Assembly (NCBI GenBank): GCA_900299245.1
Contig: OMJA01000093.1
Location: 1-32,100 of the forward strand
Direction: 5' to 3'
Origin: Nitrospiraceae bacterium
Lineage (GTDB): Bacteria > Nitrospirota > Nitrospiria > Nitrospirales > Nitrospiraceae
DNA: 32,100 bases
Below the pieces are notes generated by a model, which was not told the origin of the DNA, ran no database searches, and worked only from the letters and a program-made list of their open reading frames with translations. The position numbers and the translations under genes are program-made. Below, one piece after another: positions 7,489 through 29,111 of this stretch. How positions within the stretch are numbered: the stretch's first letter is position 1; each line of letters opens with the position of its first letter.

Positions 7489-9303
7489 GTGAATAAAAAA
7501 GTCTCCTTTTCCATCTGGTACGTTTTTCTTGCCATCTGGGCGGTGATCCTCGTCCACGACTTCATCTCTGCGCTGCAGAAAATCGAAGAGCTTCCCTACA
7601 GTGAATTCCGGCAGCTCGTGGCGGCGGACAAAGTTGCCGAGGTGGCGGTCGGCAGTCACACCCTGACGGGAAAGCTCAAGCCGGAGGGCGACGCCAAAGA
7701 GTCGAAGCTGTTCTCGACCATCCGGGTGGAAGATCAGGATCTTGTTCGGGAGTTGAATCAGCACAAGGTGAAATTTGTCGGGGTGATCGAGACGACGTTC
7801 TGGCGCGATGTGCTGTCCTGGATTCTGCCTGCCGCCATTTTCGGGGCCATTTGGTATTTCTTCATTCGCCGGCTGGGACAGGCCCAGGGCGGGTTTATGC
7901 AGGTCGGTCAGTCCAAGGCCAAGATTTACGCCGAGACAGACATCAAGGTGACGTTCGCCGATGTCGCCGGGGTGGATGAGGCGAAGGAGGAACTCCGCGA
8001 AGTGATCGAGTTCCTGAAGACGCCGGAGAAATTCACCAAACTCGGCGGGAAAATTCCCAAGGGCATCCTGCTCGTCGGACCGCCGGGAACGGGTAAGACC
8101 CTGCTCGCGCGGGCCGTGGCCGGCGAGGCCGGCGTGACGTTCTTCAGCATCAGCGGGTCGGAGTTCGTCGAAATGTTCGTGGGGGTGGGGGCCGCGCGGG
8201 TGCGTGACCTCTTCGAGCAGGCGAAGCTGAAGGCTCCATGCATTATCTTTATCGACGAACTCGATGCGCTGGGGAAAGCCCGCGGCATGGGACCGATGGC
8301 CCATGAAGAACGCGAGCAGACGCTCAATCAACTCCTGGTCGAAATGGACGGGTTTGATCCCCGCATCGGCGTCATTCTGATGGCCGCGACCAATCGGCCG
8401 GAGATTCTGGATCCCGCGCTGTTGCGGGCCGGCCGGTTCGACCGTCAGGTGCTGGTCGACCGCCCGGATAAGATCGGCCGGCTGGCCATTCTGCGGGTCC
8501 ATGCGAAGCAGGTGGCCTTGGGGCCCGATGCGGACTTGGAGGTGATCGCCGGGATGACGCCCGGCTTCTCGGGCGCCGATCTCGCCAATATCATCAACGA
8601 AGCCACGCTCCTCACCGTGCGCCGGAATAAGGAACTGGTCGGCCTTCCGGAATTACAGGAAGCGGTGGAGCGGGTGGTGGCCGGTCTGGAAAAGCGGAAC
8701 CGGGTGCTCAACAAGATGGAGAGGGAGCGTGTCGCCTACCATGAAGTCGGTCATGCGCTGGTGGCCCTCTCGCTTCCCGGAGCCGATCCGATCCAGAAGA
8801 TTTCGATCATCCCGCGCGGGATTGCCGCGTTGGGCTATACCCTTCAACTTCCGACCGAGGACCGCTTTCTGATGACCAGGACGGAGTTGGAGAACAAAAT
8901 TGCGGTGTTGCTGGGAGGGCGGATTGCAGAGGAGCTTACCTTTGGCGAAGCCTCCACCGGTGCGCAGAACGATCTGGTGAAAGCCACGGATATCGCCAAG
9001 AGCATGGTCAAGGCCTACGGCATGAGCGAGAAGCTGGGCGCGATCACATTGGAACGGGAGCGCCAGCCGCAGTTTATGCAAATTCAGCTGTCGCAGGAAA
9101 AGGGCGATTACTCCGAGGAGACGGCCCGTGAAATCGATTGCGAGATCCGACGGATCGTGGACGAGCAGTTTGCGCGGGTGAAGCGATTGCTGGGAGAACA
9201 GCGAGCGGCGCTGCAGGCGGGAGCTACCATGCTGATGGAGCGGGAAGTCATCACCGGTGCCGAATTGAAAACGATCATGGAGAACCAATCGGCCGGCCGG
9301 TAG
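7489..9303 (+). CDS. ftsH: ATP-dependent zinc metalloprotease FtsH
   Basis: A 604-residue membrane-anchored AAA+ protease that extracts and degrades misfolded membrane proteins and selected soluble regulators. Two membrane helices (about 8-25 and 108-127) flank a small periplasmic domain. The AAA domain shows Walker A GPPGTGKT (197-204), pore motif [14 protein letters not shown], Walker B IIFIDE (252-257) and the second region of homology [20 protein letters not shown]. The protease domain has HEVGH (418-422), with the third zinc ligand expected in the Asp of [11 protein letters not shown] at 7489 is preceded by GGAGCGAGG. It is slightly shorter than the Escherichia coli enzyme (about 640 residues), mostly from a short C-terminal tail. 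It stands apart from its neighbours functionally; Nitrospirota often have several ftsH copies, so this may not be the only one. Confidence 0.95.
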
Positions 9304-12961: not shown

Positions 12962-13312
12962 ATGACGGTTTTCCGCAAACAGATGGCCGGAGCGGCGATG
13001 ATCGGCTGGTGGCTGGCAGCGGCCGTTTCGGGAGCGGCGGCGGGCGAGCCGGATCTTGCCAGGGGAAAACAGGTCTATGAGAAATATTGTCTGGCCTGCC
13101 ATGGCCCGCAGGGGCGGGGGGATGGCGCAACCCAATTCGATCCGCCGGTGGCCGACCTGACATCGAGTGATGTGCTGATGAAGCCGGACTCCCGGCTCCT
13201 CAAGAGCATCCATGACGGCCGGACGAACACGGCGATGGATGCGTGGAAAACAACGCTGTCGGATGAGGCGATTCGTGCCGTGCTGGCCTATATTCTGACG
13301 TTTCCCCGATGA
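12962..13312 (+). CDS. Exported monohaem cytochrome c
   Basis: A 116-residue periplasmic electron carrier. A signal peptide covers about residues 1-28 (cleavage near AAAGEP); the haem site is CLACH (43-47) and a candidate sixth ligand is the Met in NTAMDAW. The tail SDEAIRAVLAYILTF is the usual final helix of class I cytochromes. A Shine-Dalgarno AAGGAAGG(T) lies upstream. It is clearly paralogous to the cytochrome at 15535: both share PADLTS or close variants, IHDG, NTAM-AW and LSD-I-VLAY. Its redox partner is unknown; position suggests service to the following DsrE/OsmC genes or the sulfur block. Confidence 0.9.
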   Translation: MTVFRKQMAGAAMIGWWLAAAVSGAAAGEPDLARGKQVYEKYCLACHGPQGRGDGATQFDPPVADLTSSDVLMKPDSRLLKSIHDGRTNTAMDAWKTTLSDEAIRAVLAYILTFPR

Positions 13313-15380: not shown

Positions 15381-15488
15381 TGGGGAGTTCCTCTCCAATC
15401 AACGCCGTACAGCAGAGCCTTGTGTGTCTGTAAACCTCTAAGCCGCTGAAAACAGAGTTGAATGTTGGTTTTGTAATTGGGCCTTGCA

Positions 15489-15504
15489 TGGCACATCGCT
15501 GGCA
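15489..15504 (+). promoter_or_regulatory. Sigma-54-like promoter candidate
   Basis: TGGCAC-N5-TGGCA keeps the -24 GG and -12 GC dinucleotides at the correct 10-base spacing of sigma-54 promoters (consensus TGGCAC-N5-TTGCW); the one deviation is G for T in the -12 element. It lies 30 bases before the cytochrome gene at 15535, leaving a short leader with AGAAGAGG. A very similar site lies at 23753. No rpoN or enhancer-binding regulator is in the window. Confidence 0.35.
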
Positions 15505-15534
15505 ATACTGACTTTGCAGAAAGAAGAGGTGTGT

Positions 15535-15903
15535 ATGCGTGTGATCGGAATCGTGGTCAGTATTCTGATCGGACTGATCTCTGTCGGTTTCGGGGGCGGC
15601 GGGCTCAAAGATCTGCCGGCTGCGTCGGGGAAGCAAGCTGATGCGGTGACCGGCCGGGAAATTTATTCCAATACCTGCATTCGCTGCCACGGGATCGACG
15701 GCAAGGGAGCCCTGGGATTGCAACTCGTGCCGAAGCCTGCCGATTTGACGTCGCCTGGGATCCAGGGCCGGTTGGATGCGAGTCTCTTTAAACGGATTCA
15801 CGACGGAAAGCCCAATACTGCGATGGGGGCGTGGAGCGCGGCGTTGTCCGACGACGAAATCTGGGACGTCTTGGCCTATGTCCGGACATTCCGGCAGGAG
15901 TAA
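15535..15903 (+). CDS. Exported monohaem cytochrome c
   Basis: A 122-residue exported cytochrome. A hydrophobic N-terminus (1-23) acts as signal or anchor; the haem site is CIRCH (48-52), followed by DGKGALGLQLVPKPADLTS. The NTAMGAW Met is the probable distal ligand and LSDDEIWDVLAYVRTF the final helix. It is a close paralogue of the protein at 12962. ATG 15535 was preferred over an upstream frame start at 15484 because a purine-rich AGAAGAGG sits just before it. It opens the sulfur block and is a plausible electron acceptor for the TsdA-like or SorA-like enzymes. Confidence 0.9.
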   Translation: MRVIGIVVSILIGLISVGFGGGGLKDLPAASGKQADAVTGREIYSNTCIRCHGIDGKGALGLQLVPKPADLTSPGIQGRLDASLFKRIHDGKPNTAMGAWSAALSDDEIWDVLAYVRTFRQE

Positions 15904-16227: not shown

Positions 16228-17082
16228 ATGCGTTCACGTGTGGTGAGTAGCCTGCTTGTGGCGGGTGTCTTGGCTGGATGGGCTGGATGTACTCCGACAC
16301 CGAAAGTCGATCCGCCGCTTCACGCCGGGGAGAGGAAAGCGGGCTTAACCGCTGCCGACGTGTTGTTTGCACCGCCGTATCCGGAGCAAATACCGGGCGA
16401 CCAGCGGGGTGAGCAAATCCGCCTGGGGTACAAGATCGTGGTCGATACGCAGGAGTATGGCAGGCCCTATGCGGGCAACCGGTTGAATTGTACGAACTGT
16501 CACCTTGATGCCGGAATGAATCCGAATACCGCTTCCTTTGTCGGCATCAGCCGGTTGTATCCGGAATATCGGGCGCGGGCTGATCGGAAGATGACGTTGG
16601 CGGATCGCATCAACGAATGTTTCGAACGCAGCATGAACGGCAAGGCGGCTCCACCCGATAGTTCGAAGTTGCAAGCCGTCGTCGCCTACATCGATTGGCT
16701 CTCGGAAAATGTGCCGCCGGGCAGCGCCGTTCCGTGGCGCGGTATTCCGCGGGTCGCTTCCAGCCGCACTCCGGATCCTGTAAACGGAAAAAAGATCTTT
16801 GCCGCGAAATGCGTGTTTTGCCATGGCGCGGACGGGCAGGGGACGATGGCCGCCCCGCCGCTCTGGGGACCGCACTCGTACAACATTGCAGCAGGGATGG
16901 CTCGCGTGAGCGTCGCGGCGTCGTTCATCAAATCCAACATGCCGAGGGGTTGGGGGTGGACCTTGACCGACGATGAGGCCTATGACGTGGCGACCTATAT
17001 GAACAGCCAGCCGCGTCCGGACTTTCCCGGCAAAGAGCAGGATTGGCCGAAGGGCGGCAAACCGGCGGATACACCCTACTAG
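16228..17082 (+). CDS. tsdA: TsdA-like dihaem cytochrome c (probable thiosulfate dehydrogenase/tetrathionate reductase)
   Basis: A 284-residue exported protein with two haem sites, CTNCH (88-92) and CVFCH (195-199). TsdA oxidises thiosulfate to tetrathionate in the periplasm, or the reverse. The key TsdA mark is a Cys that ligates the first, active-site haem; here Cys131 in RINECFERSMNGKA is in the expected place. The second haem's ligand is probably Met238 in IKSNMPRGWGWTLTDDEAYD. The N-terminal signal contains WAGC and could be a weak lipobox (Cys21) or an ordinary signal. It sits between a DUF2892 gene and sulfur-transport genes, 9 bases upstream of the latter. Related dihaem cytochromes without thiosulfate activity exist, so the function is likely, not certain. 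Confidence 0.72.
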   Translation: MRSRVVSSLLVAGVLAGWAGCTPTPKVDPPLHAGERKAGLTAADVLFAPPYPEQIPGDQRGEQIRLGYKIVVDTQEYGRPYAGNRLNCTNCHLDAGMNPNTASFVGISRLYPEYRARADRKMTLADRINECFERSMNGKAAPPDSSKLQAVVAYIDWLSENVPPGSAVPWRGIPRVASSRTPDPVNGKKIFAAKCVFCHGADGQGTMAAPPLWGPHSYNIAAGMARVSVAASFIKSNMPRGWGWTLTDDEAYDVATYMNSQPRPDFPGKEQDWPKGGKPADTPY

Positions 17083-17091
17083 GAGCGCCTG

Positions 17092-17627
17092 ATGGCCTCG
17101 CACTCTCCGGTCGAACCAGTGCTTCCCTGGTGGGCCGGTGGTCTCGGAATCGGTCTGGTGCTGATCGTGGCTGTCGGGTTGGTGCAACCGATCGGAGTAT
17201 CCACCCAATATGTCGCATTAGACGGCGTGCTGCTGTATCGCGTCCTTCCCGAGGTGGCCGCGCAGACACCCTATCTGCAGGAAACAACCGGAGAATGGAC
17301 CCTGGCCACCTACGAAATTTGTTTGTGGCGGGAATCCCGCTCGGGGCCTTTCTCTCAGCCCTGGCGACCGGTCGATTTACGACCAGGCTCGTGCCGGACG
17401 AATGGAATCGCCGTTTCGGATCAGGACCAGGCCTGCGGCTGGTGTGGGCATTCATCGGCGGTTTCCTTCTGCTCTTCGGAGCCCGATTTGGGGGCGGATG
17501 CACATCCGGCCATATGATCAGCGGGGTTTCGCAGTTGGCGGTGAGTTCGATCGTATTTTCCGTGACGCTCTTTGCCAGCGCCATCGTCACGGCGCGGTGG
17601 CTCTACTCGAACGGGAGACGCGGATGA
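17092..17627 (+). pseudogene. YeeE/YedE sulfur-transport protein, frameshifted
   Basis: The gene is split across two frames. The first frame (from ATG 17092, AGGAGCG upstream) gives PWWAGGLGIGLVLIVAVGL and LGVSTQ-like IGVSTQYVALDGVL; the second frame (to TGA 17627) gives FVAGIPLGAFLSALATGR and GARFGGGCTSGHMISGVSQL, the conserved Cys motif of YeeE/YedE transporters, which bring thiosulfate or sulfur groups across the membrane. Adding one A to the AAA at 17315-17317 gives TYENLFVAGIPLGAF and restores a protein of about 178 residues. No slippery heptamer is seen in the reading frame, so a real mutation or a sequencing/assembly error is more likely than programmed frameshifting. The next gene encodes the partner half and overlaps by 4 bases. 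Confidence 0.8.
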
Positions 17628-18154
17628 AGCTGTTGTTGGGATTAGTGTTGGGTGCGGCGTTCGGCGCCATGCTTCAGCTGTCCGGCGCATCCAGCCACAC
17701 GAAGATCACCAATACGCTCCGGTTGAAAGATCTGACGGTCATGAAGGTGATTCTGACGGCGATCGGCGTCGGATTGATCGGCGTGCATATGTTGGATGCG
17801 GCCGGCTGGGCTCATATGAAAGTCAAAGACCTCTATCTGCCCGGCATGGCGTTGGCCGGAGGAATCTTCGGAGTAGGCTTTGCGGTGACCGGCTATTGTC
17901 CCGGCACGGCCCTGGCTGCCGCAGCCGAAGGGAAACCGGATGCGTGGGCCACGGTCCTCGGCGGGCTCGTCGGTGCGCTCGTCTTTGCATTCATGTTTCC
18001 CGAGCTCGAGGGATATTTGCTTTCGATGGGTCAGTTCGGTCCGGTCACGGTACAGGGCTTTCTGGGCATGCAAGGAATCTGGCTCGCCGCGCCGCTGGCT
18101 GCGGGCTGTCTGTATCTTGCATGGCGGTTGCCCGGAGCGGGAGGGACACGATGA
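17624..18154 (+). CDS. YeeE/YedE family sulfur-transport subunit (second half)
   Basis: A 176-residue membrane protein with about five helices and the family motif GYCPGTALAAAAEG, whose Cys is thought to relay sulfur through the pore. Two half-size proteins encoded in tandem, as here with the preceding gene, are a known arrangement equivalent to one full-length YeeE. The start ATG overlaps the stop of the preceding gene (ATGA). Residues 20-70 contain a charged loop between helices. It would import thiosulfate or a related sulfur compound, or move sulfur for the adjacent TsdA/SorA-like enzymes; direction is not shown by the sequence. The gene is intact although its partner is frameshifted. Confidence 0.82.
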   Translation: MKLLLGLVLGAAFGAMLQLSGASSHTKITNTLRLKDLTVMKVILTAIGVGLIGVHMLDAAGWAHMKVKDLYLPGMALAGGIFGVGFAVTGYCPGTALAAAAEGKPDAWATVLGGLVGALVFAFMFPELEGYLLSMGQFGPVTVQGFLGMQGIWLAAPLAAGCLYLAWRLPGAGGTR

Positions 18155-18564
18155 CACTGACGGTCTCCTACCATGGCGGCATGCGGCACGATATCGTGAG
18201 TGGGAAGCATCGCATTATTACAGACCAGCCGGCCGAAGACGGCGGGCAGGATGCGGGGATGAGTCCGGTTGAATTGTTCGTCGGCTCGGTCGCCAGTTGC
18301 GTCGGATACTTTGTCGGGCAGTTCTGCGCCCGGCATCATATTTCACGCGAAGGCCTTGCGGTCGATGCCGAATGGGAAATGGCCGAAGGCCCTCATCGCG
18401 TGGGGAAGATTGCTCTGGCAATCAGGCTGCCGCACCGGCTCACGCCGGAGATGAAGGAGCGGTTGTTGAAAGTTGCGCACGGGTGCACGGTGCACCAGTC
18501 TCTCTCGGGCTCGCCGGCGGTCAGTATCCAGCTCAATCCTCATACCACGGGAGCGCACCCATGA
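18151..18564 (+). CDS. OsmC-family protein
   Basis: A 137-residue OsmC-fold protein with the redox cysteine pair at Cys50 (GSVASCVGYFVGQFC) and Cys112 (VAHGCTVHQSL). The segment MSPVELFVGSVASC is a typical OsmC signature. Family members are thiol peroxidases or handle sulfane sulfur. ATG 18151 overlaps the transporter stop and the gene's stop overlaps the SorA-like start, so it is translated as part of a tightly coupled chain. This placement between a sulfur transporter and a sulfite dehydrogenase favours a persulfide-related role, by inference. Confidence 0.85.
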   Translation: MTLTVSYHGGMRHDIVSGKHRIITDQPAEDGGQDAGMSPVELFVGSVASCVGYFVGQFCARHHISREGLAVDAEWEMAEGPHRVGKIALAIRLPHRLTPEMKERLLKVAHGCTVHQSLSGSPAVSIQLNPHTTGAHP

Positions 18565-19745
18565 GTGACTCCGGCGCATTGTCCCGCCGCACGTGCTTCC
18601 AGCGGATCGCGTTTCTGCTCGGCGGTCTTGCCCTATGGCGACGGGTACAACCGGCGCAGGCTGAACCGGCTGGCGTGGTCGAGACCGGCCCCCAGACCGT
18701 GCGGGTCATGCGACCCTACGATGCAGAAACCCCGGTGCGAGAATTTGCCTCGTACCTGACTCCCAATCATCGATTTTTTGTAAGAAGTCATTTCGGCCCG
18801 CCTGAAGCGGCGCTGATTGCCGAGGCCGACTGGCGGCTCCGTGTGGGGGGACTGATCGAGCATCCGCTGGAGTTGACGCTCAAGGACCTCAAACAGTTTG
18901 AACGGATCACGATCACGGCGGTGGTGCAATGCAGTGGCAATGGCCGCGCGTTTCATCGTCCGAAAGTGCCGGGCGTGCAGTGGGAGCGGGGCGCGGTCGG
19001 GAACGCCCAATGGACGGGGGTGCGGTTGCGGGACCTGTTGGCGAAAGCCGGTGTGCGTCCTGCTGCGAAGCACGTGCAACTCCAGGGCGCCGATCGCCCG
19101 GTGGTCACGTCCGTGCCATTGTTCACCCGCAGCATTCCATTAGAGAAAGCGGTTCATCCGGACACGATCCTCGCGTACGAAATGAACGGGCGGCCCCTGC
19201 CGCTGTTGCACGGCGCACCGTTGCGGGTGATTACGCCAGGCTGGATGGCTGATTCCTGTATCAAGTGGCTGACCGACATCACTGTGCAGGCGGACGAGGC
19301 CAAGGGCTATTACATGCAGACGGCCTATCGCGTGCCGGTCACGGCCATTCAGCCGAATTCCGGTCTGCCGGGGACCTCGATGGTTCCGGTGGAAGCGATG
19401 GTCCTGAAATCGCTGATCGCCTCGCCCGGCAACGGTGATGAGGTCGGGCGCGGGCCGGTGACCGTGCAGGGCGTAGCCTGGAGCGGGGAATCGGCGATTA
19501 CGACGGTGGAATTGTCCTTTGACGAAGGCAGGACCTGGGAGCAGGCGAGGCTGGTCGGAGAGGATGAGCCCTACGCCTGGCGGCAATGGCAGTTTCTCTG
19601 GAAACCGAAGGCGGCCGGCTCCGCCAGCATACTGTGTCGTGCAACGGATTCGGCGGGCCAGGTTCAGCCGCAGACGACGGCCTGGAACCCAAGCGGGTTT
19701 TTATGGAACGGGTGGGACCGCGTGACTGTGACGGTGCAGGCCTGA
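18561..19745 (+). CDS. sorA: Sulfite dehydrogenase, molybdenum subunit (SorA/sulfite oxidase family)
   Basis: A 394-residue periplasmic molybdoenzyme that oxidises sulfite to sulfate. The N-terminus has a Tat-like signal (SRRTCFQRIAFLLGG). The molybdopterin domain (about 60-285) contains VVQCSGNGR with Cys124 as the molybdenum ligand, and HGAPLRVITPGWMADSCIKW. The C-terminal domain (about 290-394) is the Ig-like dimerisation domain, with the family features GVAWSGESAITTVELSFDEG and WQFLWKP. ATG 18561 overlaps the OsmC stop. The gene immediately downstream encodes a dihaem cytochrome, matching the SorAB plan. A different sulfite-oxidase-family enzyme (for example YedY-like) is less likely because of the dimerisation domain and partner cytochrome. 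Confidence 0.87.
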   Translation: MSDSGALSRRTCFQRIAFLLGGLALWRRVQPAQAEPAGVVETGPQTVRVMRPYDAETPVREFASYLTPNHRFFVRSHFGPPEAALIAEADWRLRVGGLIEHPLELTLKDLKQFERITITAVVQCSGNGRAFHRPKVPGVQWERGAVGNAQWTGVRLRDLLAKAGVRPAAKHVQLQGADRPVVTSVPLFTRSIPLEKAVHPDTILAYEMNGRPLPLLHGAPLRVITPGWMADSCIKWLTDITVQADEAKGYYMQTAYRVPVTAIQPNSGLPGTSMVPVEAMVLKSLIASPGNGDEVGRGPVTVQGVAWSGESAITTVELSFDEGRTWEQARLVGEDEPYAWRQWQFLWKPKAAGSASILCRATDSAGQVQPQTTAWNPSGFLWNGWDRVTVTVQA

Positions 19746-20350
19746 TGATGTTCAGTCGTATGTTGATCAGCGTGATTGTGTTGGGCGTGGCCGGGGGCGC
19801 GGCCATGACCGGAGCGCAGGAGGAGGATGTCGTGGCGGCCCTGGCACCGCGGGCGGAAACATTGATTCTCGCACGCTGTTCCGTCTGTCATACGCCGGAC
19901 CTTGTCGCGCAGCAGCGGCTGCCGAAAGACCGATGGGAGGCGACGGTCCAGAAGATGCGGCATTGGGGCGCCGAGATCACGGAGGAAGAGGCGGGGCTGC
20001 TCGTGCGGTTTCTGTCCGCCCGCTATCACCCAGGCGCGCCGGATCAACTGCCGCCGCTGGACAGCGAGTTGCGGAAGGCAGAGCCGTTGACGCAGGAGCC
20101 GGCAGCCGAGGGGCCGCTCGTCGGCGTGGCCGTGCGGGGAGCGGGTATTTTTGAACACAATTGCCAGGCATGCCACGGAACCGGGGCTACCGGCGGGTTC
20201 GGACCCAAACTCGCAAAGAATCCGATACTGAAACACGAAGACCTGTTCTGGGAAACGGTGCTGCACGGGCGCGGGCCGATGCCGGCCTGGGGTGCCGCGC
20301 TCAGCCATCAGGACATTGCCGACATTCACGCCTGGTTGTTGACGAAATAA
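19745..20350 (+). CDS. sorB: Dihaem cytochrome c, probable SorB-type partner of sulfite dehydrogenase
   Basis: A 201-residue exported cytochrome with a signal peptide (about 1-24) and two haem sites, CSVCH (45-49) and CQACH (140-144). The first domain (LILARCSVCH then DRWEATVQKMRHWGAEITEEE) resembles the SorB cytochrome of sulfite dehydrogenases; the second looks like a fused class I cytochrome, with Met in GPMPAWGAALS as likely ligand. SorB normally has a single haem, so this is an enlarged version. Its second domain is clearly similar to the cytochrome at 28737 (GPKLAKNPIL, FW, GR-MP, IADIHAWL). The start overlaps the sorA stop (TGATG); ATG 19748 is an alternative. Confidence 0.8.
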   Translation: MMFSRMLISVIVLGVAGGAAMTGAQEEDVVAALAPRAETLILARCSVCHTPDLVAQQRLPKDRWEATVQKMRHWGAEITEEEAGLLVRFLSARYHPGAPDQLPPLDSELRKAEPLTQEPAAEGPLVGVAVRGAGIFEHNCQACHGTGATGGFGPKLAKNPILKHEDLFWETVLHGRGPMPAWGAALSHQDIADIHAWLLTK

Positions 20351-20387: not shown

Positions 20388-21398
20388 ATGAATGTGAGAA
20401 GGAACGTGATGCTTGGAGGGGCGCTGCTGACGCTAGTGGGATTGATGTCCACTCCGAAGCTGTTGTTCGGAAGCGACCAGCCCCGGGCGAAAGAATTGAT
20501 TCAGCAGGCCTGCGTCCAATGCCATCGGCTGGAAGGGCAAGCCGACTCGCGATTCAACCTGCGCGCCCCGGATCTGATCTGGGCCGGGAGCAAGTACAAC
20601 CGGCCCTGGTTGATCCGCTGGCTGACCGGGAAGGAAGCGCCGCTCTATGTGAAAGGCTATCGCTGGGATCTCAGCGAAGGAGCCGTGAAGCATCCGGTCG
20701 TGACGGAGTCAGAGGCGAATGCCATTGCCGATTACTTTGACAAGCACAACAAGGATCCGCGGGTGACAGTCGGCGCGTATGACGTGACGAAGGTCACCAA
20801 GTTTGAAGCCGCGTTCGGCGGGATGGCCTATAAGGCGCATGCCTGTCTCGGTTGCCACACGGTCGAGGAAAACGGAAAACTCATCGGCGGGCAGCAGAGC
20901 GCGGCGCTGGAAAAATCCGGTCAACGCTATAACATGGACTGGCTGTTCCGGTTCGGATTGAACCCGCAGGATTTCGTGCCGCACAGCGGCGAGTTCCTCG
21001 CCGATGCGACCGAGCCGCAGTTACGTGCCGTGCTCGGATACCTGGCGACGCAGGGCGTGCCGGACTTTAAATATTACGAGCCCTGGACGGCTCCCGAATT
21101 CGGGAAGGCCAGCGTCGGGCGCGGAAAAGTCATCTACAAGGAGTATTGCATGCAGTGCCACGGGGCGACCGGGAAGGGCGATGGGCCGGCCGCGGCGACG
21201 CTGGAGCCGAAACCGGCGATTCATGCCAACATCAATTTCAGCGAGGTGCCGACGGAATATCTCTACAACATGATCAATCACGGGGGGGCGGCGATGGGCA
21301 AGTCTGCCAATATGCCGTACTGGGGATTGACCATCGGGCAGCAGGGCGTCGCGGACGTCATGGTCTATCTGAAGGCCACGTTCAAGGGACCGAAGTAG
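20388..21398 (+). CDS. Trihaem cytochrome c
   Basis: A 336-residue exported protein with three CXXCH haem sites: CVQCH (42-46), CLGCH (153-157) and CMQCH (254-258), each in its own class-I-like domain. The signal peptide is about residues 1-29. The third domain ends with GGAAMGKSANMPYWGLTIGQ, giving a Met ligand. The start ATG is preceded by AAAGGAGCG. It follows the SorB-like gene by 37 bases and probably accepts electrons from it, passing them to a terminal oxidase or another carrier; no functional name is secure. The three-domain architecture is not one I can assign to a named enzyme. Confidence 0.88.
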   Translation: MNVRRNVMLGGALLTLVGLMSTPKLLFGSDQPRAKELIQQACVQCHRLEGQADSRFNLRAPDLIWAGSKYNRPWLIRWLTGKEAPLYVKGYRWDLSEGAVKHPVVTESEANAIADYFDKHNKDPRVTVGAYDVTKVTKFEAAFGGMAYKAHACLGCHTVEENGKLIGGQQSAALEKSGQRYNMDWLFRFGLNPQDFVPHSGEFLADATEPQLRAVLGYLATQGVPDFKYYEPWTAPEFGKASVGRGKVIYKEYCMQCHGATGKGDGPAAATLEPKPAIHANINFSEVPTEYLYNMINHGGAAMGKSANMPYWGLTIGQQGVADVMVYLKATFKGPK

Positions 21399-21416: not shown

Positions 21417-21449
21417 CGTTCGTCGCTCGCCACATGCGAGCGACGAACG
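21417..21449 (+). terminator. Perfect 14-bp hairpin between trihaem cytochrome and DsrE genes
   Basis: CGTTCGTCGCTCGC and GCGAGCGACGAACG pair without mismatch around a 5-base loop (CACAT), 18 bases after the cytochrome stop and 20 before the DsrE start. It is the strongest inverted repeat I found. No T-run follows, so it could be a terminator acting without one, an mRNA-stabilising element or an attenuator. Confidence 0.5.
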
Positions 21450-21469: not shown

Positions 21470-21829
21470 GTGGCGACGTTTATTATTTCCGGCAGTCGGG
21501 GCACAGATGATCCCACGATGGCGACACTCCCGTTCGTCGCCGCCAAAGCAGCCAAAGAGCAGGGACACGATGTCGTCCTCTGGCTCTGGAACGAAGCTGT
21601 CACGCTGGGACGGAAGGGCACGGCCGATCATGTCCATGGCGTGAATCTGACTCCGCTAAAAGACTTGCTTGCCGGGGTGCAAGCTGCAAATATTCCTATA
21701 TGGGTCTGCGGCGCCTGCGCGGTGGCCAGGCAGATCGGCGGAGCGGATCTGGTGGCCGGCGCGTCCATTAAAGGCATGCCGGACTATATCAAGGCCGTGG
21801 CCGAACGAGACCGGAACGTGGTGTTTTAG
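21470..21829 (+). CDS. Cytoplasmic DsrE-family protein
   Basis: A 119-residue protein with a DsrE fold: ATFIISGSRGTDDPTMATLP at the start, AAKAAKEQGHDVVLWLWNEA, and the Cys-containing IPIWVCGACAVARQIG (Cys80, Cys83). No signal peptide is visible, so it acts inside the cell, unlike the DsrE-like protein at 14399. DsrE relatives carry sulfane sulfur. Start GTG 21470 is preceded by AGAAGAGG. It closes the sulfur block. Its partner (for example a TusA or sulfurtransferase) is not in the window. Confidence 0.82.
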   Translation: MATFIISGSRGTDDPTMATLPFVAAKAAKEQGHDVVLWLWNEAVTLGRKGTADHVHGVNLTPLKDLLAGVQAANIPIWVCGACAVARQIGGADLVAGASIKGMPDYIKAVAERDRNVVF

Positions 21830-22941: not shown

Positions 22942-23508
22942 ATGCGAAACCATCGTGGGCTGACAGTCCTTGTCGCGGTTGGCGTGCTGAGCGCATCGGC
23001 CTTGTGGGCGGCGGAGCGCCACATGATGCAGCCGCGGGTGCCGGCCGACAAGCTGGCCGAAGCGCGCGTGTTGGTGAGCCCATTGCCGGAATCCGCAGAG
23101 ACGGCGGAGAAGGGGAAAACCCTCTATCACGGCAAAGGGACCTGCTTCAATTGCCACGGCAAAGACGGGTCGGGCAACGGCGTGGCGGCGGTCGGACTCG
23201 ATCCCTCCCCCCGCAATTTTCAGCACCATGGATTCTGGCGCCATCGGACGGAAGGTGAGATCTTCTGGGTGATCAAGCATGGTTCGCCCGGCACCGCGAT
23301 GATCGGGTTCGGCGATCAACTCAGCGACGAAGAGATCTGGTCGATCATCCAGTATGAGCGCGGTTTTGCCGGAGACCATGGCCACGGAATGATGGGGCAC
23401 GGCGAAGGTATGGGGTCCGGGATGGGACCAGGCGGGATGGGGGGCATGGGGCATCGTGGGCCAAGAGGCATGATGGGTGAATGCGAAGGCGAAGCCTGCG
23501 GCCGGTAG
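22942..23508 (+). CDS. Monohaem cytochrome c with Met/Gly/His-rich tail
   Basis: A 188-residue exported cytochrome with signal peptide (1-24), haem site CFNCH (68-72) and probable Met ligand in GTAMIGFGDQLSDEEIW. A conventional class I domain ends near residue 140. The last about 45 residues (144-188) are Gly/Met/His-rich with repeats of MG, HG and GMG and two late Cys residues, unlike any other protein here. Such tails can bind copper or other soft metals, but this is inference. AAAGAAGCGG precedes the ATG. Confidence 0.87.
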   Translation: MRNHRGLTVLVAVGVLSASALWAAERHMMQPRVPADKLAEARVLVSPLPESAETAEKGKTLYHGKGTCFNCHGKDGSGNGVAAVGLDPSPRNFQHHGFWRHRTEGEIFWVIKHGSPGTAMIGFGDQLSDEEIWSIIQYERGFAGDHGHGMMGHGEGMGSGMGPGGMGGMGHRGPRGMMGECEGEACGR

Positions 23509-27259: not shown

Positions 27260-27775
27260 ATGTCTGAGAAGGGAGTGTCGCCAGTCAAGAAAGAGAGCCG
27301 GATTGTTTTGAACGGCGCGATGCTGGGCGGGCTCTGCATCCTCCTGTTTGCCGGATGCGCCGTCGGCGAATCGCGCCAGGGCGAGCCACGGTCGAATCCG
27401 ATTCTGACCTCCGATATCCGGCAGCCCATTCCGCTGCCGGCGGCAGCAGGGAGAGAGCATCGCGCGGTGATGCTGCAACATTTGGAAACGCTGCAAGTCA
27501 TTATGAACGCGCTGGTCGAGGAGGATTATGAGCTGGCCAGGGGATTAACCGAAACGCATCTGGGGTTCTTTATGCACCGGCAGGCGATGGCGAGTCAGCA
27601 GCCGGAGCATTTTCCCCCGGCCTATCATGATCTGGCCATGGCGCATCACGCCGCCGCTGAGGAATTGGCCCGCATCATCCCGACGAAGGATCTCAAGCAG
27701 ATCCTGCCGCAATTCAATAACGTTCTGAAGGCCTGCGTGGCCTGCCATCTGGAATACAAACTGCGAAGCTCATAA
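27260..27775 (+). CDS. Cytochrome c'-like lipoprotein
   Basis: A 171-residue lipoprotein (lipobox LFAGC, Cys33) with one haem site, CVACH (159-163), near the C-terminus inside an alpha-helical protein. A C-terminal CXXCH in a helical bundle is the pattern of cytochrome c' and c556, which bind NO or transfer electrons. His-rich helices (FFMHRQAM, YHDLAMAHHAAAEELA) lie ahead of it. ATG 27260 follows GAAAGGG; ATG 27320 would give a shorter signal. It follows porB by 36 bases and precedes the hemerythrin gene by 11. Confidence 0.75.
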   Translation: MSEKGVSPVKKESRIVLNGAMLGGLCILLFAGCAVGESRQGEPRSNPILTSDIRQPIPLPAAAGREHRAVMLQHLETLQVIMNALVEEDYELARGLTETHLGFFMHRQAMASQQPEHFPPAYHDLAMAHHAAAEELARIIPTKDLKQILPQFNNVLKACVACHLEYKLRSS

Positions 27776-27786
27776 GGAAGGAGCGC

Positions 27787-28233
27787 ATGATGTCCGAACG
27801 CACGATCAGCAGCATGTTTGACGAAGACCATGACCGCCTTGACGCGCTCTTCAAATCCTTCCAGACGTTGAAGCGGAAGGATTTCCCCAGGGCCAAGCGC
27901 GCGTTCCTCGAGTTCAAGACGGGGATGCGGCGGCATGTGGCGTGGGAGGAGGACGTGATGTTTCCGCTGTGGGAGAAAAAGTCTGGCCAGACCGGCGGCG
28001 GGCCGACGATCGTCATGCGGCGCGAACATCAGGAAATCCAGGACTGCCTGGAATCCATCGATCGCAAACTGCAGGCGCAAAATCCGGAGACTGACCATGA
28101 GGAGGAGATTCTGCTGGATCTCGTGGATCGGCACTATATGTCGGAGGAAGAGGTCCTCTATCCTGAAATGGATCACCTGATGACTCCGGAAGAGCGCGAG
28201 GCCGCAGTGCGCGCCATAGAGAAGATTGCCTGA
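27787..28233 (+). CDS. Hemerythrin HHE-domain protein
   Basis: A 148-residue cytoplasmic di-iron protein. Likely iron ligands are H15 (DEDHDRL), H50 and E54 (MRRHVAWEED), H81 (RREHQE), and H116 with E120/E121 (RHYMSEEEVLYPEMD). Hemerythrin-domain proteins bind or sense O2 or NO, or store iron. ATG at 27787 or 27790 follows AAGGAAGGAGCG. Its position between oxygen-sensitive Por genes and cytochromes suggests an O2/NO-related protective role, which is inference. Confidence 0.85.
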   Translation: MMSERTISSMFDEDHDRLDALFKSFQTLKRKDFPRAKRAFLEFKTGMRRHVAWEEDVMFPLWEKKSGQTGGGPTIVMRREHQEIQDCLESIDRKLQAQNPETDHEEEILLDLVDRHYMSEEEVLYPEMDHLMTPEEREAAVRAIEKIA

Positions 28234-28243
28234 GGTGCACACA

Positions 28244-28708
28244 GTGGACAAAGACAGTCTCAAGCACAGCCGGATGGCGATACGAGCGGGGATGGTGGTC
28301 GTTCTGCTGGCATTAGGAGGCGGGGGTATTTCGGCGCCTGGCTTGTGGGCGGCTCCCTCATCGTCCGGAAAGCCGGCCGCGCCGGGCAATGCCCTGGCAG
28401 GCAGGAGCATCTTTAACGGCAAAGGTGTCTGTTACTACTGTCATGGTGTCGACGGGTATATGGCGAAGCGGCCCGAACTTGCCGCTGATACGGCTGCGTT
28501 GATCGCCCGCCTGAATCCGCCGCCGGCTGATCTGCGGAATCCCAACGTGCTCCATTTGAAAAACGACAAGCAGCGCGCGCAAGCCGTTCGCGAAGGTCAT
28601 CCCGGCACGGGGATGTTTCCCGACACGACCATCACGGATCAGGAACTGGCGGATACACTGGCCTATCTGGCGTTCCTTCGGAAGGAAGGCTCCACGGGGC
28701 AGCAATGA
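28244..28708 (+). CDS. Exported monohaem cytochrome c
   Basis: A 154-residue exported cytochrome with a signal segment (about 11-37), haem site CYYCH (63-67) and a likely Met ligand in GTGMFPDTTITDQELADTLAYL. I chose GTG 28244 because GAGGTG ends 6 bases upstream; TTG 28226 and ATG 28274 are alternatives, and the choice affects only the signal region. The chosen start lies 10 bases after the hemerythrin stop. It could accept electrons from neighbouring oxidoreductases; no specific partner is identified. Confidence 0.82.
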   Translation: MDKDSLKHSRMAIRAGMVVVLLALGGGGISAPGLWAAPSSSGKPAAPGNALAGRSIFNGKGVCYYCHGVDGYMAKRPELAADTAALIARLNPPPADLRNPNVLHLKNDKQRAQAVREGHPGTGMFPDTTITDQELADTLAYLAFLRKEGSTGQQ

Positions 28709-28736
28709 AGGTGAAAAGCAAAAGGGAGTCATGCCG

Positions 28737-29111
28737 ATGAACAGATGGTTGATTGGCGCCGTCCTCTCTCTGGTGGTTGTTGAAGCTGCGGGCAACGGGA
28801 TTGTGAACGGGGCGAACAGCGATGGACGGCAACATGCGGGCATGAATGAATCGAGCGGGAATGTGCCGGTGCGTCCTGCGGGGGACAGTAGCAGAGGCCA
28901 GGGACTCTATGATTCCAGCTGTATCGTGTGTCATGGGCCGCAGGCCGCCGGCGGCATAGGTCCCCGGTTGGCAGGCAACCCCGTGCTGTCGAATGAACAG
29001 GCGTTCTGGAAGGTCGTGTATGAAGGGCGGCACGTGATGCCGCCGCTGAAAGGCTCGATCACCGAGCAGCAGATGGCCGACATCCAGGCCTGGCTGAAGA
29101 CGTTGCGGTAA
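28737..29111 (+). CDS. Exported monohaem cytochrome c
   Basis: A 124-residue exported cytochrome with signal peptide (about 1-20), haem site CIVCH (62-66) and probable Met ligand in HVMPPLKGSIT. It matches the second domain of the SorB-like protein at 19745: both have GPRLA or GPKLA-NP-L, FW-V and IQAWL or IHAWL. ATG 28737 lies 8 bases after AGGGAG, better spaced than ATG 28731. It follows the preceding cytochrome by 28 bases. Possibly an electron carrier for a sulfur enzyme, as the resemblance hints. Confidence 0.85.
   Translation: MNRWLIGAVLSLVVVEAAGNGIVNGANSDGRQHAGMNESSGNVPVRPAGDSSRGQGLYDSSCIVCHGPQAAGGIGPRLAGNPVLSNEQAFWKVVYEGRHVMPPLKGSITEQQMADIQAWLKTLR

Follow-up and report, generated by a model that had tools for sequence, protein, structure and literature searches.

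The dihaem protein of the anammox HAO-like complex has been described as a dihaem redox partner (PMC6423088), and in N. moscoviensis a second complex III cluster encodes, besides a Rieske protein and a fused cytochrome b/c, one extra dihaem cytochrome (PMC6606698). Regarding sulfur oxidation, a tsdA region with cytochromes has been reported in the nitrite oxidiser Nitrotoga (PMC9239080), and according to a survey of the Nitrospirales, sorAB is mostly confined to lineage IV (PMC12342949). For the nitrite oxidisers of the Nitrospirales and Nitrospinota, neither a phenotype of sorAB nor physiological evidence for it has been reported (PMC10579370, PMC10839748). Here, a TsdA homologue and a SorA-like gene prove widespread in the Nitrospiraceae, usually beside one conserved multi-haem cytochrome (hereafter CYT). 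The surprise lies less in the three-haem protein than in how widely nitrite oxidisers carry this thiosulfate/sulfite locus. The CYT copy discussed below is encoded in a window (the whole analysed stretch of 32,100 nucleotides) that belongs to a Nitrospira-like draft genome (G000) of 3.0 Mb, 88% complete. With moderate confidence, we favour the reading that CYT is a periplasmic electron relay from the thiosulfate/sulfite oxidation locus to the cytochrome c pool.

The CYT protein and its haem sites

In the window, CYT (20388..21398, + strand) is a three-haem periplasmic cytochrome of 336 aa, as assessed from its ORF, its motifs, a profile search and a structure model. Its ATG start lies at 20388, with a GGAG stretch resembling a ribosome site 5' of it, and its stop at 21396-21398. 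The protein comprises a signal-like segment (about residues 1-29) and the domains D1 (about 30-125), D2 (about 135-222) and D3 (about 235-332), the hydrophobic, signal-like N-terminus being of low confidence in the structure model. CYT-type matches (E<=1e-20) occur in 132 of 175 Nitrospiraceae genomes, nearly all of them open and full-length, and the three CxxCH motifs recur across the homologues. Since frame and motifs are kept in more than 100 genomes, CYT is a real gene, and its product is a genuine, widely conserved and unnamed multi-domain class I cytochrome.

The assignment to the class I c-type cytochromes is based on the CxxCH motifs and the fold, D1 and D2 being class-I-like by model and motif and having no Met at the usual place, so that a distal Met (Met309) is found in D3 alone. 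D3 is above the Pfam cut-offs of PF00034 and PF13442, and the best Pfam class I stretch covers this domain only. In the profile search no Pfam or NCBIfam model gave the protein a name, and its scores against SorB (NF052246, 15.6 bits) and SoxX (TIGR04485, 33.6 bits) are below the respective curated cut-offs of 93 and 61. The structure model, made with 50 sequences, contains three confident domains (pLDDT 86.3, pTM 0.80); no whole-length fold partner was found for it in the PDB at E<=0.001 (best TM by query, 0.28), and its weak PDB fold matches are class I cytochromes. These data agree with the original prediction of an exported protein with three class-I-like domains (one ORF, three CxxCH motifs and a hydrophobic N-terminus, with the Pfam class I stretch at D3 only), and also with its statement that no named enzyme is known to have such a layout, as neither a named family nor a solved protein matches CYT as a whole.

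Haem site 1 (CVQCH, residues 42-46; 20511..20525, + strand) would have His102 as its distal ligand, a residue that is invariant in 50 of 50 homologues by column counts and occupies the Met-Pro place of class I cytochromes. At haem site 2 (CLGCH, residues 153-157; 20844..20858, + strand) there is no Met at the usual place, and His199 is a candidate ligand, which is kept in 43 of the 45 longer homologues and is Asp/Glu/Gly in five relatives consisting of D1-D2 only. For haem site 3 (CMQCH, residues 254-258; 21147..21161, + strand), the predicted distal ligand is Met309, conserved in 45 of 45. As read from the alignment columns, the haem coordination would be His/His in D1, uncertain in D2 and His/Met in D3. 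In the alignment column taken as the Met place of D2, 49 of 50 homologues have Leu, Val or Ile, and D2 is rich in invariant residues; both observations, like the missing His199 of the D1-D2-only relatives, would suit a catalytic enzyme whose Met-less D2 were an open or exchangeable haem site acting on a small substrate (e.g., a sulfur species or nitrite). However, the His199 of the longer members could simply ligate the haem, and no known catalytic haem protein was found to match CYT over its whole length, so a catalytic CYT is considered very improbable.

The D1-D2-only dihaem relatives (32-39% identity; L086:12391-13041, L089:9819-10508, L091:8555-9250, L096:14685-15371 and L105:8712-9374) are a separate unnamed family, and their genes lie near those for a sensor kinase, a rhodanese, a metallo-beta-lactamase/rhodanese or a MauG-like protein.

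Family distribution and probable loss of a fourth domain

The family search, a six-peptide scan of a species-level genome collection, led to Nitrospira-type and Nitrospinota contigs. Above 50% identity, the family occurs in the order Nitrospirales only, plus the Nitrospinota at 49-56%; within the phylum Nitrospirota, full-length matches of more than 50% identity come from two Nitrospirales families only, the other Nitrospirota giving weak matches, mostly below 33% identity, or matches to D3 alone. The isolate name and the place in the tree suggest that a contig labelled Nitrosospira (L047) comes from a comammox-type Nitrospira. The CYT gene of N. moscoviensis lies at 3727343-3728344 of the chromosome (NZ_CP011801.1). 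Some CYT genes appear broken or truncated (L102, about 8106-8730; L055, about 7710-8620; and the matches in G104 and G105), owing to either decay or assembly error.

Most homologues have about 468 aa and carry a fourth CxxCH domain (D4), which is absent from the window CYT and about 19 other copies and present in the rest and in the Nitrospinota; the D1-D3 that characterise the family, with His102 and Met309, are all found in the window protein. In a tree of D1-D3, the three-haem rows fall into two groups, one of 17, with a single four-haem row among them, and one of three, giving three changes overall. The four-haem proteins of the Nitrospinota lie at the other end of this tree, whose method infers no root. 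The four-haem state at both ends of the tree suggests that D4 was lost, probably on at least two occasions, to give the three-haem form. The three domains noted in the original prediction are real, but a four-haem protein is the probable ancestor from which this layout was shortened. No characterised homologue was found, and hence none with another function and without a sulfur link, as would have refuted that prediction. A possible link between D4 loss and SorA adjacency, which is seen in 19 of 20 three-haem versus 12 of 41 four-haem tree rows, comprises only 2-3 independent contrasts and was set aside.

The gap between CYT and the DsrE gene in the window is only about 70 bp, which leaves no room for a remnant of D4. 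The closest relative of the missing domain in the window is a monohaem cytochrome of 188 aa (22942..23508, + strand; 43% over 115 aa). Its origin as a split-off D4 was rejected because the four-haem loci L011, L017 and L023 carry the same gene, which makes it a paralogue and not a fission product. A transfer of D4 into SorB was likewise rejected, as SorB is dihaem beside four-haem CYT as well.

Genes around CYT in the window

The 5' part of the window holds the end of an SQR-like gene (18-674), the Rieske and fused cytochrome b/c genes (548-2547), efflux, FtsH and lipid-transport genes and small cytochromes; the middle runs through the TsdA homologue, a split YeeE, OsmC, SorA, SorB, CYT, DsrE, PPK2 and the monohaem cytochrome, and 3' of the latter lie 2-oxoacid:ferredoxin oxidoreductase-like genes (genes outside the profile scan were named by sequence inspection). 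More small single-CxxCH proteins are encoded at 12962-13312, 15484-15903, 27260-27775, 28226-28708 and 28731-29111, and the window is an unusually cytochrome-rich region. Searches against phage families and plasmids gave no match.

The TsdA-type thiosulfate dehydrogenase homologue (16228..17082, + strand; 284 aa, dihaem) matches A. vinosum TsdA with an E of 1e-54 and has Asn in place of the Lys that adjoins the Met ligand in wild-type TsdA. It is followed by a YeeE/YedE-type sulfur transporter in two parts (17092..17627 and, with the Sulf_transp domain, 17624..18154, both on the + strand), whose first half is frameshifted near 17320 when compared with the intact relative in L098, through assembly error or decay. 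An OsmC-like protein (18157..18564, + strand), named by its sequence and conserved place, lies directly 5' of the SorA-like sulfite dehydrogenase Mo subunit (18561..19745, + strand; 394 aa). The latter matches S. novella SorA (PDB 2blf) with an E of 5e-71, and the sulfite-oxidase active-site residues (Arg, His, Cys, Arg, Tyr) all align. Together with the retained Cys and Met ligand positions of the TsdA homologue, this conservation argues for the relay reading. Since its score against the NCBIfam SorA model (326) is below the cut-off of 600, the protein is called SorA-like and not a certified SorA, and this may be why the published survey does not count SorA in the window's lineage.

The SorA-like stop overlaps the start of a SorB-like dihaem cytochrome (19745..20350, + strand; 201 aa), which consists of a SorB-like first domain and a second class I domain, and CYT starts 38 bp after it; the adjacency to sulfite dehydrogenase genes, as originally described, is thereby borne out. 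The gene overlaps and short gaps suggest a single transcript from YeeE through OsmC, SorA and SorB to CYT. Directly 3' of the CYT stop there is a hairpin (21417..21449, + strand) with a perfect 14-bp stem and no T run, contained in an 80-nt stretch of -34 kcal/mol (z -3.3). It is possibly a processing, stability or termination element; a terminator scan gave no site at this position, and the hairpin was not conserved in the single comparison made, with L057. A promoter scan gave nothing above chance. The DsrE-family gene (21470..21829, + strand) is the most constant downstream neighbour of CYT.

Co-occurrence with sulfur genes across genomes

The counts, made with relatedness ignored, cover 142 CYT copies in 131 genomes. 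In 102 of 121 cases, CYT and a TsdA homologue are at most 6 kb apart, and in 104 of 126, DsrE is at most 3.5 kb away. A TsdA homologue is present in 122 of 172 Nitrospiraceae genomes; 111 of the 172 have both CYT and TsdA, 20 CYT only, 10 TsdA only and 31 neither, kinship again being ignored. SorA-like genes (>=58% identity) are found in 77 of these 172 genomes, and 62 of the 77 lie within 3 kb of CYT. This proximity, the contiguity of SorA, SorB and CYT in the window and the direct adjacency of SorA and CYT in the second Nitrospirales family as well would be expected if CYT were stably bound to the sulfite dehydrogenase as its third subunit (SorABC-like), with electrons passing from Mo to SorB to CYT in one complex. 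However, SorA is missing within 3 kb of 80 of the 142 CYT copies, 56 of which still have DsrE; conversely, a SorA-like gene is found without CYT in 8 genomes, some incomplete. Because SorA is not near over half of the copies, CYT is not a SorAB-specific subunit, and a stable complex of this kind seems improbable. Regarding the originally proposed electron relay or new oxidoreductase subunit, a relay is the most economical function. The sulfur link is real, recurring in two Nitrospirales families and, by way of a TsdA homologue, in a Nitrospinaceae contig, but the tie to sorAB is not specific: a SorA-like gene is within 3 kb of just 62 of 142 copies, and TsdA and DsrE are more frequent partners.

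The second Nitrospirales family is a better control than counts among relatives. In it, a SorA-like gene (34-38% to that of the window) lies within about 8 kb of CYT in 11 of the 12 genomes having it, and in six genomes it is the next gene, less than 600 bp away; neither PPK2 nor DsrE of the window type was seen beside CYT in this family. SorA is upstream of CYT in most Nitrospiraceae and the next gene downstream in G131, G006, G001 and the six genomes of the second family, and this differing order indicates that CYT and SorA are not one frozen block. In the Nitrospinaceae contig L051, two CYT genes and a TsdA-like gene follow one another.

The main competitor of the sulfur relay is a general respiratory one, in which CYT would serve nitrite oxidoreductase, the bc complex and a bd-like oxidase (or reverse electron flow), its proximity to sulfur genes being secondary. 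Homologues above 50% identity are confined to Nitrospirales and Nitrospinota genomes, a range that nearly coincides with nitrite-oxidiser groups, as would likewise be expected of a core respiratory part; and the Rieske and fused cytochrome b/c genes share the neighbourhood of CYT not only in the window but also in L022, L023, L048-L050, L099-L101 and L104. Furthermore, a four-haem CYT paralogue (L032, L035, L037, L039, L040, L042) is followed by two exported proteins that look like cupredoxins (the L032 pair, which was scanned, has no Pfam match) in a locus with no sulfur gene, which would fit a general respiratory role; response regulator, kinase and phosphate-transporter-like genes come next in most of these loci. 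Nonetheless, the adjacency of TsdA, SorA, DsrE and OsmC is repeated, in two families and with differing SorA order, and several Nitrospiraceae genomes more than 90% complete have no CYT, which would be odd for a core respiratory part if these bacteria oxidise nitrite. On balance, a general role appears rather unlikely. Against the sulfur relay stand the 24 of 142 copies with neither SorA nor DsrE nearby, some of them at contig ends, the genomes that have only one of CYT and TsdA, the fact that sorAB has no reported phenotype in these nitrite oxidisers, and the non-independence of synteny among close relatives.

Proposed role of CYT

A relay role for sulfur electrons is suggested by the persistence of the family beside genes for thiosulfate and sulfite oxidation. 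The observations comprise the sequence, the family, the number of domains, the ligand columns and the synteny, and haem ligation, electron direction, partners and substrate are predicted from them. CYT would be a soluble or loosely anchored periplasmic carrier, a short form of the four-haem family of nitrite oxidisers, receiving electrons in the periplasm from the neighbouring TsdA homologue and, where present, from the SorA/SorB-like sulfite dehydrogenase. Within the protein, electrons might pass from D1 (putatively His/His) and the Met-less D2 to D3 (His/Met), which would hand them on to small monohaem cytochromes and the cytochrome bc/oxidase system. Three-haem proteins lack the exit domain D4, for which the free D4-like monohaem cytochrome could stand in, or D3 could serve as a direct exit.

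More tentatively, and with some doubt on our side, the nitrite oxidisers of the Nitrospirales and Nitrospinota may share a dedicated periplasmic system, in which a four-haem cytochrome with two Met-less domains would feed thiosulfate and sulfite electrons into the nitrite-based chain, these nitrifiers thus being also sulfur oxidisers. Should this electron route exist, a concrete test of reduced sulfur as an energy source for these nitrite oxidisers would become possible.

Comparison with known systems

CYT resembles SorB/SorU in being a c-type cytochrome that adjoins a SorA-type gene, and in a single-domain fold match to SorU, but its family has three or four haems and a separate SorB-like gene is present. 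Like TsdB and TsdBA (5lo9), it is a cytochrome with several haems whose gene lies close to that of a TsdA homologue; however, the profile match is a 33-residue stretch of D3, with no whole-fold match, and the three-haem CYT is neither fused to tsdA nor directly adjoining it in the window, so that it does not qualify as a TsdB. A further counterpart is the dihaem chain of the Kuenenia HAO-like complex (6h5l chain B, kustc0457), a small dihaem electron-transfer subunit. In a search with a profile of the CYT family, its 226 residues were matched almost completely by D3-D4 (E 4.5e-19), both being class I, and this match speaks for the relay. Unlike that chain, the CYT family has the extra D1-D2, and the window CYT has no counterpart of the chain's second domain; no HAO-like partner for CYT was identified here. 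Finally, the dihaem subunit of complex III_2 in N. moscoviensis (PMC6606698) is apparently encoded in the same locus (L049) as a CYT relative, and based on the gene order there (Rieske, cytochrome b/c, TsdA homologue), that additional subunit is probably the TsdA homologue and not CYT.
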